This document shows positions 30,437-36,573 of a stretch of 64,000 nt of DNA, in pieces. Origin of the DNA: Blastococcus sp. VKM Ac-2987. Lineage in GTDB: Bacteria; Actinomycetota; Actinomycetes; Mycobacteriales; Geodermatophilaceae. Numbering within the stretch: the stretch's first letter is position 1; every line of letters begins with the position of its first letter. The stretch covers positions 573,143 through 637,142 of the forward strand of contig NZ_JAPVBG010000001.1 of NCBI RefSeq assembly GCF_026967805.1. The letters are read 5' to 3'. The notes under the pieces are model-generated. The model had not been told where the DNA came from and did no database searches. It saw only the letters and a list, made by a program, of their open reading frames with translations. The position numbers were made by a program, and so were the translations under genes.

Positions 30437-30651
30437 GTTCTCCTACCCCTCGTCTCGTCCGTCAGGTCGACGCGGACGACGACGCTGCCACCGGACGCCC
30501 GGGACCTGCGAGCACGTCCTGCCATCCGGTCACCTGCGCTTCCCGTGCCTTCTGAATCGACCGTGGGACCCTCGCGGGGCCTCTACGCCGGGCTGGTTCG
30601 ACAGCGTGGTTGCGCGTGTCCGCCCGTGTTCTCCGACCGCGCCAGCACCCT

Positions 30652-30675
30652 CACGGTACCCCCGGGGGTACCGTG
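30652..30675. promoter_or_regulatory. CstR/CsoR-type operator (site a), 24-bp perfect palindrome
   Basis: Positions 30652-30675 are a perfect 24-bp palindrome whose core, 30657-30670, is TACCC-CCGG-GGGTA. The same TACCC-N4-GGGTA motif recurs at four other intergenic places up to 36.4 kb. It is the C/G-tract inverted repeat expected for CsoR/CstR-family repressors. It lies 216 bp upstream of the SHOCT/multicopper oxidase operon and overlaps the start of a small plus-strand ORF. 30437-30651 has no supported gene. Confidence 0.7.
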
Positions 30676-30807
30676 GAGCCAGCGCGGTTCGACGACCTCC
30701 CGACGGGCGAACGGCCGGTGGTCGACGTCCATCCGCCGTCACCGGACCGGTGGAAGCTGCCCCGGCACGAGACCGCCTTCTGCGAGCTGCTCGTCTCGGC
30801 GCGCTGA
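30673..30807 (+). CDS. Possible 44-residue ORF overlapping operator a
   Basis: A GTG at 30673, inside the right arm of operator a, opens a 44-residue frame: VEPARFDDLPTGERPVVDVH, then PPSPDRWKLPRHETAFCELL, stop at 30807. Composition and third-position GC look coding-like, but I recognise no family and see no ribosome binding site. It would have to be translated from a leaderless or near-leaderless transcript. It may equally be the tail of a lost gene. The region 30808-31064 holds nothing recognisable. Confidence 0.3.
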   Translation: MEPARFDDLPTGERPVVDVHPPSPDRWKLPRHETAFCELLVSAR

Positions 30808-31064
30808 CGCGCTGACGACGTGCCGGTGGGCTCCTGGGGGCCCACGGCGTCGTGAACGTGCCCCCGCTGTCGAGCGACTCCGGCCAAGCCTGCACCGCTG
30901 ACGACGGCTGTCCGGACCGCGCCGCCCACGGGGCCGCGACCGCCGGGTGCGGGGCAGCGCCGGCATCGGCGGCCGGCTACCAGGTCGGGGCTGCGTCGGC
31001 AACGGACTCGGCAGGTCGCTCGGGGCGACATCTCGCAGCTCGGGCACGCATCCCGGCGAGCTGG

Positions 31065-31238
31065 CTACCGGGATCGCCGGAACCTTGCGAAGAAGCCACC
31101 ACCGGCGCGCCCGGCCTCGCGATCGTGCCCCGGGCAGCGCTCCGCGGCAGGGACGCCTCCCATCACCTGATCCACGTGCTGGCCGCAGCCGGCCCACGTG
31201 GTCTTGCCGCAGGTCTTGCAGGACACCGCTCGACACAT
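31065..31238 (-). CDS. Small Cys-rich (zinc-ribbon-like) protein
   Basis: This 57-residue protein has MCRAVSCKTCGKTTWAGCGQ followed by HVDQVMGGVPAAERCPGH and a basic Phe/Arg tail. Its Cys pattern (C-x4-C-x2-C...C...C-x2-H) suggests a zinc ribbon or treble-clef-like site. The CKTCGKTTWAGCGxHVDxVM.GVP pattern is one I associate with small uncharacterised actinobacterial proteins. The ATG at 31238 has AAGGAGAAGG upstream. It is divergent from the sulfur operon, and operators b and c lie in the shared 200-bp intergenic region, so co-regulation with the persulfide genes is likely. Confidence 0.75.
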   Translation of the reverse strand: MCRAVSCKTCGKTTWAGCGQHVDQVMGGVPAAERCPGHDREAGRAGGGFFARFRRSR

Positions 31239-31352
31239 CCGTCCTTCTCCTTCGCTCCGAGGGCCGCCGCGCGGGCAGATGCCGGTCTCGCAACGGCGCT
31301 TTCGCCACGTCCGTCGCGGTGGCGCCGGCTTGGTCGACAACCGCTCCGAACA

Positions 31353-31366
31353 TACCCCCGGGGGAA
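31353..31366. promoter_or_regulatory. CstR-type operator (site b), one mismatch
   Basis: The sequence is TACCC-CCGG-GGGAA, one base off the TACCC-N4-GGGTA motif. On the minus strand a TATGTT element that could be a -10 box adjoins it (31348-31353). This would place the site at the promoter of the small Cys-rich gene that starts at 31238. Confidence 0.55.
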
Positions 31367-31386
31367 TGGCGACGGCGGTGCTACGG

Positions 31387-31416
31387 TTGAGGCACACATA
31401 CCCCCCCGGGTATATG
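31387..31416 (+). promoter_or_regulatory. Promoter of sulfur operon with CstR-type operator (site c)
   Basis: A -35-like TTGAGG (31387-31392) and a -10-like TATATG (31411-31416) are separated by 18 bp. The operator TACCC-CCCC-GGGTA (31399-31412) fills the spacer, a position where bound repressor would block RNA polymerase. The rhodanese start codon follows at 31439 with AAGGAG at 31428-31433. Confidence 0.65.
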
Positions 31417-31438
31417 TCCCAGTCGTCAAGGAGCTGAC

Positions 31439-34641: not shown

Positions 34642-34665
34642 GGGAGGGCACCGGGAATGCCTCCC
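34642..34665 (+). terminator. Hairpin after TauE gene
   Basis: GGGAGG (34642-34647) pairs with CCTCCC (34660-34665) around a short loop, with additional GCA/TGC pairing beside a one-base bulge. It lies 10 bp after the TauE stop and before operator d. No T-tract is seen. Confidence 0.35.
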
Positions 34666-34690
34666 TGCCGCGCGGCGCTCCACCCAGCAG

Positions 34691-34704
34691 TACCCGCCCG
34701 GGTA
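34691..34704. promoter_or_regulatory. CstR-type operator (site d) upstream of the repressor gene
   Basis: TACCC-GCCC-GGGTA lies 33 bp before the repressor's start codon. It indicates autoregulation of the CstR-like gene, the usual arrangement in this family. Confidence 0.65.
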
Positions 34705-34736
34705 TCACGCCCGGCGGGCGGGAGAGGATGAAGGAC

Positions 34737-35003
34737 ATGCAGCTCGAAAACACCCAGGTCGTCGGTGACGTCGTCAAGCGGCTTCGGCGCGCTGAGGGCC
34801 AGCTCGCGGGCGTCATCCGCATGCTGGAGGCCGGCCGCGACTGCGAGGACGTCGTCACCCAGCTGGCCGCCGTCTCCCGGGCGCTGGACAAGGCCGGGTT
34901 CGCCATCATCGCCACCGGCCTCGAGCAGTGCATCACCGCCGGCGAGGACGGCGACGCCCTCGACCGCGCCCGGCTCGAGAAGCTGTTCCTCTCCCTGGCC
35001 TGA
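34737..35003 (+). CDS. CsoR-family repressor, CstR-type (persulfide sensor)
   Basis: This 88-residue all-helical repressor of the CsoR/RcnR (DUF156) family has [20 protein letters not shown] and [17 protein letters not shown]. From the ATG at 34737 the thiols are Cys36 and Cys65, 29 residues apart. The position of the copper-ligand His (61 in Mycobacterium tuberculosis CsoR) is Gly61. This is the CstR signature: two Cys that form di- or trisulfide links with sulfane sulfur, and no copper site. The start was chosen because GGAGAGG sits 9 bp upstream; the ATG at 34728 would abut it. It ends 12 bp from the convergent second CstB-like gene. Confidence 0.88.
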
Positions 35004-35015
35004 GCCGGACGGAAC

Positions 35016-36380
35016 TCAGGCCCCGGCCGGCCGCACCTCCAGCCCGGCCTCCCCGGCCGCTCCGTAGTCGTCGTTCACGAGCACCACGGAGCGACCGGGC
35101 CGGTCCAGCACCGAGGCGGCGATCGACGCCCGGTAGCCGGAACCGCAGTAGACCCACACCTCGCCCTGCGGGACGTCGTCGAGCCGGTCCGCGAGCTCGT
35201 GCAGCGGGATGTGCTGCGAGCCCCGGACGAAGCCGTCGGCCCGCTCGTCGTTGCGCCGGGCGTCGAGGACCTGCACCGGCCCGCACTCCATCGCCTCGGC
35301 CAGGCCGGCGAAGTCGCTGACCGGGTAGGACCGCAACGGCCGCCCGTCGGCGAGGGACCCGACGTCCCCGATCGCGGCCCCGGCCAGCTCGTCGACGCCG
35401 ATCCGCACCAGCTCGCGGCGGGCCTCGGCCACCTGCTCCTCGCTCTCGCCGATGAGCGTCAGCGGCGCTCCGTAGCGGTACAGCCACCCGAGATAGGTCA
35501 CGAAGTTCGTGCCGAGCTCGACGTTCATCGAGTCGGCGAGGTGGCCCGCCGCGAATGCCGTGCGCTCGCGCAGGTCGACCACCCACTCCCCCGCCTCGAT
35601 CCGCCGGCGCAACTCGGCCGGGTCGACGCGTTCCGGGACGGAGAGATCGACCGGCGCCGGCCCCCGCCGGTTGATCGGGGCCATGCGCGAGTAGTAGGCC
35701 GGGTAGGCGTCCAGCCCGGCGAGCAGGGTGTCGACGTACTCCTGCTCGGCCTGCGTCAGGGCGGGGTTGACCCGCTGCTGCTCGCCGATGGTCGACGACG
35801 TCCCGCTGGTCGGGGTGGCCGAGCAGAAGCTGCCGAAGCCGTGGGTCGGGAACACCTGCGCCTCGGCCGGCAGCTCCCGGGCCAGCCGCCGCACCGAGTG
35901 GTACTGGGCGTGGGTCAGCTCGTCGGTGGCTGCCGGGCTCACCAGGTCGGTGCGGCCCGTGGCGCCGTACAGCATGGAGCCGCCGGTGAACACGGCCTGG
36001 ACCTCGCCGCCATCGGCCGCCAGGGCGTGGCAGACGTGGTGATGGGTGTGCCCGGGGGTGTGCAGCACTGCGAGACGCATCCGGCCGGCGTCGAGGACAT
36101 CGCCGTCGGACACCGCCACGTGGTCGACCTCCGCGTCGCTCCCGCTCGGGAGGACGTAGGCCGCCCCCGCATGCCGAGCGAGCTCCGGGCCGCCGGTGAC
36201 GTAGTCGTTGTGGACGTGCGTCTCGACGACGTGGGTGATCCGCACGCGCCGCCGCTCGACCAGGTCCAGCACCCGGTCGATGTCCCGCTGCGGGTCGACG
36301 ACCACGGCCACCTCGCCGTCGTCGATGAGGTAGCTCCGGTCCCCGAGGCTGGCGGTCTCGATCGTCTGCACGTCGAACAT
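35016..36380 (-). CDS. CstB-like persulfide dioxygenase/rhodanese fusion (second copy)
   Basis: This 454-residue paralogue of the protein at 31786 has the same three-part layout. The MBL domain has HVHND, PGHTHHH and GGSMLYGATGR, the central rhodanese-like domain lacks Cys, and the C-terminal rhodanese has Cys412 in WVYCGSGYRAS. Long stretches match the first copy (ELRRRIEAGEWVVDL, RTAFAAGH, YPTHGFGSFCSAT-type). It is transcribed toward the repressor gene from its own promoter region, which carries operator e 16 bp before the ATG. Two CstB-like enzymes in one regulon may have different persulfide substrates, which is inference. Confidence 0.9.
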   Translation of the reverse strand: MFDVQTIETASLGDRSYLIDDGEVAVVVDPQRDIDRVLDLVERRRVRITHVVETHVHNDYVTGGPELARHAGAAYVLPSGSDAEVDHVAVSDGDVLDAGRMRLAVLHTPGHTHHHVCHALAADGGEVQAVFTGGSMLYGATGRTDLVSPAATDELTHAQYHSVRRLARELPAEAQVFPTHGFGSFCSATPTSGTSSTIGEQQRVNPALTQAEQEYVDTLLAGLDAYPAYYSRMAPINRRGPAPVDLSVPERVDPAELRRRIEAGEWVVDLRERTAFAAGHLADSMNVELGTNFVTYLGWLYRYGAPLTLIGESEEQVAEARRELVRIGVDELAGAAIGDVGSLADGRPLRSYPVSDFAGLAEAMECGPVQVLDARRNDERADGFVRGSQHIPLHELADRLDDVPQGEVWVYCGSGYRASIAASVLDRPGRSVVLVNDDYGAAGEAGLEVRPAGA

Positions 36381-36396
36381 GCCGGTCCCCTTCCCC

Positions 36397-36410
36397 TACC
36401 CGGTGGGGTA
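36397..36410. promoter_or_regulatory. CstR-type operator (site e) upstream of second CstB-like gene
   Basis: TACCC-GGTG-GGGTA lies 16 bp upstream of the ATG at 36380 on the minus strand. With sites a-d it completes a set that marks each transcription unit of the sulfur island. Confidence 0.65.
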
Positions 36411-36573
36411 CCAGCGCCACTGTGCCGCACGGCTCCTGAGCGACGCCGGCGCCGCATCCCGGCGGGCCTCCGGCCGGCACCCCGCCGTGTCGTTCGTACC
36501 GCCGATCACGGCTGTACGCGACGCGGGGCGACGACCCCGGTCTGACCTGCGGCGTTGCCCTGCCCCTCGCCCC

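Follow-up and report, generated by a model that had tools for sequence, protein, structure and literature searches.

A probable CstR-type persulfide regulon in Blastococcus sp. VKM Ac-2987 and the spacing of its operators

Introduction

How does a bacterium that encodes several repressors of the CsoR family keep their regulons apart when the operators are nearly identical? Avoidance of such cross-talk is relevant to any genome with several of these paralogues, and the question is raised by a gene cluster in the soil actinobacterium Blastococcus sp. VKM Ac-2987 (contig NZ_JAPVBG010000001.1, positions 573,143 to 637,142; this whole stretch of 64,000 nucleotides is hereafter called the window). 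There, five copies of a TACCC-N4-GGGTA palindrome (N4, a spacer of four bases; N5, one of five) are set among genes for rhodaneses, CstB-like enzymes, a sulfite exporter, a small Cys-rich peptide, a laccase-type multicopper oxidase (MCO) and a CsoR-family repressor, here named CstR1. An earlier note, made from the sequence alone, took this arrangement for a regulon of the CstR type. Our analysis supports that interpretation, and we consider it highly probable that the cluster is a CstR (ScCsoR-type) persulfide-responsive regulon, given the residue set of the repressor, the confinement of the exact motif to CstR clusters genome-wide and an N4 operator that is unlike the N5 operator of copper CsoR.

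Results

The repressor and its operators

CstR1 is a member of the CsoR family (Pfam PF02583; 81 bits against a cut-off of 22.8). With the start at 34737, alignment bears out the residues read by the earlier note: both cysteines (Cys36 and Cys65) are kept and the copper-binding His is replaced by Gly61, so that the Cys-His-Cys set of copper CsoR and RicR is incomplete. The Cys/Gly/Cys pattern was present in nine of ten aligned sequences, the tenth being the genome's own copper CsoR at C6, which reads EEHLSHC. The top PDB matches were 7mq1-3, and 7MQ2 is named CstR in a legend of PMC9774590. Rhodanese, persulfide dioxygenase (PDO) and TauE genes are linked to cstR1, with an operator ahead of them, as fits a CstR.

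The window scan recovered the five operators (sites a to e; Table 1) where they had been placed before, four of them exact and site b with one mismatch; a further one-mismatch site, at 25472, lies inside a called gene. At up to two mismatches the window holds 14 sites against a chance mean of 12.4, which is no excess, and we therefore put weight only on exact or near-exact sites. A first-order Markov model predicts 0.38 exact sites in 4.61 Mb, and the chance that four fall within 5.8 kb is P = 2e-15. A scan of the whole genome (4.61 Mb, 12 contigs) returned just five exact copies, all at CstR clusters: the four of the window and one at C1:1292844, before another CsoR-family gene (cstR2). The reversed control pattern has three. 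At up to one mismatch, the motif is found at 36 places per strand compared with 54 for the reversed control, so that one-mismatch sites carry no weight alone. Site b is exempt from this discount because relatives keep it: all eight CstR1-type promoters compared (window, L069, L070, L071, L074, L076, L089 and L093) carry a copy 36-47 bp ahead of site c, with one mismatch in six and two in L070 and L074 (near-identical sequences). The proposal that site c lies between a -35 and a -10 element was left without support, since a consensus scan of 30400-36600 found no sigma-70-type promoter; TTGAGG and TATATG can be picked by eye around the site.

We then extended the comparison to 98 loci (the window, L008, L069-L089, L093 and L095-L168, with L090, L091, L092 and L094 dropped as duplicates), most of which were picked by CstR identity, so that the figures describe these loci rather than whole genomes. 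All 187 exact sites in them are intergenic by the calls of a program that misses very small genes, while 8 of the 58 one-mismatch sites fall inside genes. In the 350 bp that follow an exact or one-mismatch site, the gene families found were CstR (72), PDO/CstB (40), YgaP-like (27), rhodanese (21), thioredoxin (18), DUF302 (13) and pyridine-nucleotide-disulfide-oxidoreductase-rhodanese (8), followed by small groups of MMPL (3), SQR-like (2), OsmC (2) and SHOCT (2) genes; phosphoketolase, kinase and other groups may be there by chance. Family assignments were verified with Pfam for one or two members each and, in the SQR-like pair, with PDB for L101. Among 76 named CstR loci, the 600 bp before CstR contain an N4 site in 63 cases and an N5 site in 2, each with at most one mismatch. 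At the level of genomes, the 40 of 96 family genomes with CstR average 2.75 exact sites and the 56 without it 0.75, where G027, with two partial CstR matches, was counted among the 40.

Thioredoxin and DUF302 genes were seen behind N4 sites in L069, L072, L073, L089, L105, L108, L120 and others, and are candidates for further members of actinobacterial CstR regulons.

Three paralogues and two spacings

The genome holds three PF02583 genes, namely cstR1, cstR2 and a copper-type csoR. The second lies at C1:1292896, with the fifth exact N4 site 14 bp ahead of its start, and is followed by genes for a rhodanese, a CstB-like protein, a YgaP-like rhodanese and TauE. The third (C6) is found beside genes for an HMA-domain protein and an HMA P-type ATPase and has an N5-spaced site. 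This difference in spacing was examined across the family with the best-scoring 30 copper CsoR loci and 30 CstR loci, allowing at most one mismatch within 300 bp before the match. Among these best-scoring matches, copper CsoR loci have an N5 site in 28 of 30 and an N4 site in 1 of 30; among the CstR matches listed, an N4 site precedes 28 of 30 (27 exact) and an N5 site none. The split by repressor type is significant when kinship is ignored (Fisher P = 2e-13). In the Blastococcus genome itself, exact WACCC-N5-GGGTW occurs at three places, before csoR, 93 bp before a P-type ATPase gene and in an apparent 23S rRNA, the last of which we read as chance. The window scan found no N5 site near the cluster; all five sites are of the N4 kind, which puts site a, ahead of the SHOCT-MCO genes, on the persulfide side.

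Published operators in Streptomyces have the same two spacings: the copper CsoR of S. lividans uses an N5 spacer (TAC-X9-GTA; PMC3902906), and ScCsoR of S. coelicolor binds ATACC-n6-GGTAT, that is, TAC-X8-GTA (PMC7533328). PMC7533328 itself treats the sites of ScCsoR, Geobacillus CsoR and mycobacterial RicR as one motif, and the N4/N5 rule may therefore be bound to a lineage.

If two CstR paralogues share one palindrome, some of the window sites might be repressed chiefly by CstR2 and not by CstR1, or both proteins might bind all of them. This variant of the CstR reading gains from the operator of cstR2 being the same N4 palindrome. In relatives, however, each cluster type has a site adjoining its own repressor gene, an arrangement that favours CstR1 at the window cluster without being decisive, as it is compatible with cross-binding. 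On balance we think the variant somewhat unlikely, and take CstR1 as the repressor in what follows.

Two side observations concern the cstR2 locus. Its YgaP-like rhodanese gene (L008:8918-9390; G000:C1:1294917-1295389) is apparently broken, with a stop and split frames, while its neighbours are open. Furthermore, the P-type ATPase gene with an N5 site 93 bp ahead of it encodes a His-rich protein (L008:11746-14001), and this N5 site lies about 4.9 kb from the N4 site of cstR2, so that the two kinds of operator are neighbours here.

Table 1 Genes and operator sites of the cluster (window positions)
Feature	Position	Strand	Remarks
MCO, laccase-type	28728..30110	-	Three Pfam Cu-oxidase domains; frame open upstream into SHOCT
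Small SHOCT protein	30083..30436	-	Start 30424 or 30436; Pfam SHOCT, 30.3 bits (cut-off 27); gene call
Site a, TACCCCCGGGGGTA	30657..30670		220-232 bp upstream of SHOCT; within a 24-bp perfect palindrome
Cys-rich peptide, 57 aa, MCRAVSCKTCGKTTWAGCGQHVDQVM...	31065..31238	-	Supported by relatives
Site b, TACCCCCGGGGGAA	31353..31366		One mismatch; 46 bp from site c
Site c, TACCCCCCCGGGTA	31399..31412		26 bp ahead of rhodanese start
Single-domain rhodanese	31439..31753	+	One Cys (Cys63); Pfam
CstB1, CstB-like persulfide dioxygenase-rhodanese	31786..33171	+	Pfam; PDB 3tp9, 3r2u
YgaP-like membrane rhodanese	33168..33746	+	Pfam Rhodanese and YgaP-like_TM
TauE/SafE sulfite exporter	33751..34632	+	Pfam PF01925, 173 bits
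Site d, TACCCGCCCGGGTA	34691..34704		32 bp ahead of cstR1
CstR1 repressor, 88 aa	34737..35003	+	Cys36/Gly61/Cys65; Pfam PF02583; alignment; gene call
CstB2, second CstB-like enzyme	35016..36380	-	59% identity to CstB1
Site e, TACCCGGTGGGGTA	36397..36410		16 bp ahead of CstB2 start; site in the same place in several relatives
MFS transporter remnant	36574..36912	+	Pfam MFS_1, 48.5 bits

The enzymes and the Cys-rich peptide

CstB1 aligns to PDB 3tp9 and 3r2u across residues 21-438, the latter of which we take to be S. aureus CstB. In both CstB1 and CstB2, the HxHxD of the metallo-beta-lactamase domain and the Cys of the C-terminal rhodanese are kept.

The open reading frame of the Cys-rich peptide was overlooked by the simple gene caller used, which misses very small genes. 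The peptide has 749 relatives, and those named among the 120 listed are 'hypothetical' or 'uncharacterized'. An alignment of the window's sequence with 31 of the 120 listed relatives (32 in all) shows no variation at C2, C7, C10, C18, C35, H21 and H38. Searches returned no Pfam or NCBIfam match and a single PDB sequence hit (E 0.57), and the AlphaFold model, of low confidence (predicted local distance difference test 69), had no Foldseek match at E <= 0.001. The 96 family genomes contain 38 copies in 29 genomes, 35 of them within 8 kb of a CstR gene; two of the other three have an exact N4 site 175 bp (G085:C170) and 104 bp (G027:C66) off, and the last is 67 kb away. Across 246 genomes of the class, a CstR is found within 8 kb for 50 of the 130 copies, compared with about 0.4 expected by random placement. 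Exclusivity to CstR is rejected class-wide by the 80 distant copies, 51 of which come from genomes that encode a CstR and 29 from genomes that do not. The tie between peptide and CstR is thus real, and the peptide family is wider than the regulon.

The SHOCT-MCO pair

The MCO has laccases as its top PDB matches and carries copper-ligand motifs; against the CueO model (NCBIfam PRK10965) it scores 183.9 bits, below the cut-off of 525, and it is nearer to Thermus-type laccases. Its small SHOCT partner has a hydrophobic, Met-rich N-terminus. The earlier note had seen in site a a hint that this operon belongs to the regulon, and relatives strengthen it. The 96 family genomes contain 14 MCO copies in 13 genomes, and seven of the eight with about 68% identity or more, the window copy among them, are tied to an N4 site or a CstR. 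An exact N4 site stands 71-86 bp before SHOCT-MCO in G091:C8 and 431 bp before it in G091:C5, where the leader is partly homologous to the site a leader of the window; in G050, G090 and G038, SHOCT-MCO comes at the end of CstR2-type operons; and a split MCO copy in G052:C157 lies about 4 kb from a CstR. The eighth copy (G044) is a fragment with a stop and no site. Outside this set, CstR, SHOCT and MCO follow in order in a Knoellia (L120) and, with one extra called gene between, in a metagenome-assembled Pseudonocardia genome (L096).

Alternatively, site a and SHOCT-MCO could be bystanders, with sites b to e still forming a CstR regulon, which is compatible with our interpretation for the rest of the cluster. 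The distance of 220-232 bp between site a and SHOCT is in line with this, as are the more distant oxidases. For five of the six family MCOs of about 60% identity (G004, G041, G059, G082 and G095), there is neither a CstR in the vicinity nor an N4 or N5 site (at most one mismatch, 1400 bp upstream), and the sixth (G086) has no site and a CstR gene 3 kb off. The 246 class genomes likewise hold 14 MCO copies in 13 genomes, of which only those of the window (G000) and G311 lie within 8 kb of a CstR. In G311, CstR, Cys peptide, SHOCT and MCO are consecutive; G269 has a one-mismatch N4 site 58 bp before SHOCT; and the other 11 copies have no site (at most one mismatch, fetched flanks) and no CstR within 8 kb. 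The MCO-CstR link is therefore narrower than the peptide-CstR link. Nevertheless, the exact N4 sites in G091, one of them in a leader partly shared with the window, and the placement of SHOCT-MCO behind CstR or CstR2-type operons in five relatives argue against a bystander, which we judge unlikely.

The leader between site a and SHOCT also holds, at about 30465-30535 on the minus strand, what appears to be a truncated reading frame, of which L190 (G091:C5) has a longer version.

An unlikely copper alternative and remaining objections

Very improbable, in our view, is a copper regulon like that governed by RicR in mycobacteria, where MmcO is a cuprous oxidase and MymT a metallothionein: it would make the sites copper-responsive, the MCO a cuprous oxidase and the Cys peptide a metallothionein, and could appeal to the laccase/CueO-like MCO, the Met-rich SHOCT protein, the mutual resemblance of CsoR-family operators and RicR being the top NCBIfam match of CstR1, but that match reaches 46.9 bits where the cut-off is 175, CstR1 is without the His ligand, copper CsoR genes use N5 sites, none of which lies near the window cluster, and the neighbours are mostly persulfide and sulfite genes.

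Several points weigh against a CstR regulon. Thirteen of the 76 named CstR loci have no N4 site within the limits given above, in some cases because the site stands before the first gene of the operon, and two of the 30 family CstR loci (L019 and L033) also have none. Family genomes without CstR still have their 0.75 exact copies each, and the reversed control averages 2.1 in both groups. Site a is at least 220 bp from SHOCT, with no promoter recognised. Finally, CstR1 and CstR2 could share or swap sites.

Discussion

From this anatomy, we infer a circuit in which reduced CstR1 would bind the 14-bp TAC-N8-GTA palindromes. Site a would then serve to repress SHOCT-MCO, sites b and c the Cys-rich peptide and the divergent rhodanese-CstB1-YgaP-TauE operon, site d cstR1 itself and site e CstB2. 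By analogy with the matching cysteines of ScCsoR, sulfane sulfur would modify or link Cys36 and Cys65, and CstR1 would leave the DNA. The rhodaneses could then move sulfur, CstB1 and CstB2 oxidise persulfide to sulfite, and TauE export the sulfite. The MCO might guard against the joint toxicity of copper and sulfide, or have sulfur species as its substrates for oxidation. Persulfide could be supplied by an SQR-like gene elsewhere in the genome (L237:1486-2673; G000:C1:1108633), which matches mitochondrial SQOR structures and lies away from both CstR clusters. The presence of this gene weakens the idea that the MCO stands in for a missing SQR. The site of copper CsoR, longer by one base pair, would hold the copper and persulfide regulons apart.

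The earlier note measured the cluster against the staphylococcal cst operon. The S. aureus system has a persulfide-sensor-type repressor (CstR) and a CstB-type enzyme in common with the window, and its operon includes CstA and SQR. The window cluster does differ from it, in that no SQR is among its genes and the SQR-like gene stands at C1:1108633 instead. The nearest known system is a different one, however: the ScCsoR circuit of S. coelicolor (SCO0618-SCO0621), in which the repressor occupies operators ahead of pdo-tauE, csoR and rhod, and polysulfide frees it from them in a reaction that involves Cys37 and Cys66 (PMC7533328). With that circuit, the window shares a two-Cys CsoR-family repressor, a type III PDO, a rhodanese, TauE, the TAC-N8-GTA operator spacing and several sites per cluster. 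What the window adds to that set is one more CstB-like enzyme, a YgaP-like rhodanese, SHOCT-MCO and the Cys-rich peptide; a paralogous CstR cluster lies elsewhere in the genome. The copper CsoR of S. lividans (PMC3902906) and the C6 CsoR of this genome belong to the same protein family and have a G/C-tract operator with TAC/GTA ends, but differ in their N5 spacer, in copper sensing and in their targets, csoR and copper efflux. TTHA1953 of Thermus thermophilus (PMC10318464) is also a Cys-based CsoR-family regulator of sulfur genes in several units, including thioredoxin, but governs the Sox pathway and has targets distant from the regulator gene.

Thus the kind of regulon is known, and what is new is the larger set of members, the existence of a second, paralogous cluster and the division of operators into N4 and N5. 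We see the evidence as evenly poised on a broader, twofold proposal: that one base pair of spacing (TAC-N8-GTA versus TAC-N9-GTA) separates the persulfide and copper regulons of paralogous repressors in these actinobacteria, and that a laccase-type copper oxidase, together with SHOCT as its partner, and the small family of CxxCGxTTWxGCGxH proteins have been recruited to the persulfide side. In that case copper chemistry and a peptide devoted to handling sulfur or metals would form part of the response to sulfane sulfur. The spacer rule has the merit of simplicity, makes predictions that oligonucleotides could test and, if true, would allow a motif scan to sort genes into a copper or a persulfide response. 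The regulon would also place two proteins in a context for the first time: a widespread Cys-rich peptide that has no Pfam match, and a copper oxidase not tied to persulfide control in the literature searched, where titles and abstract openings yielded no paper linking a multicopper oxidase to sulfane sulfur, sulfide oxidation or CstR.

Other features of the locus

Ten of the 96 family genomes, spread over five genera, carry CstR1-type genes with 91% identity or more, and a gene of 91% was found in Saccharothrix. We do not claim transfer of the cluster as a mobile island, and a plasmid origin was set aside, as 27 plasmid records match parts of 28700-37200 and none reaches 80% coverage. G091 and G085 have two CstR1-type copies each, and G091 has in addition two CstR2-type copies and 11 exact sites.

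To the right of the cluster, at 37081-39414, lies a gene for a heavy-metal P-type ATPase with a hemerythrin domain fused at its C-terminus and no N4 or N5 site just upstream. Between the two, the MFS remnant matches the last part of a 433-aa MFS gene of L072. In L069, L072 and L089, an operator site is followed by thioredoxin and then by the MFS match. This order suggests that a further unit, of site, thioredoxin and MFS genes, has been partly lost from the window.

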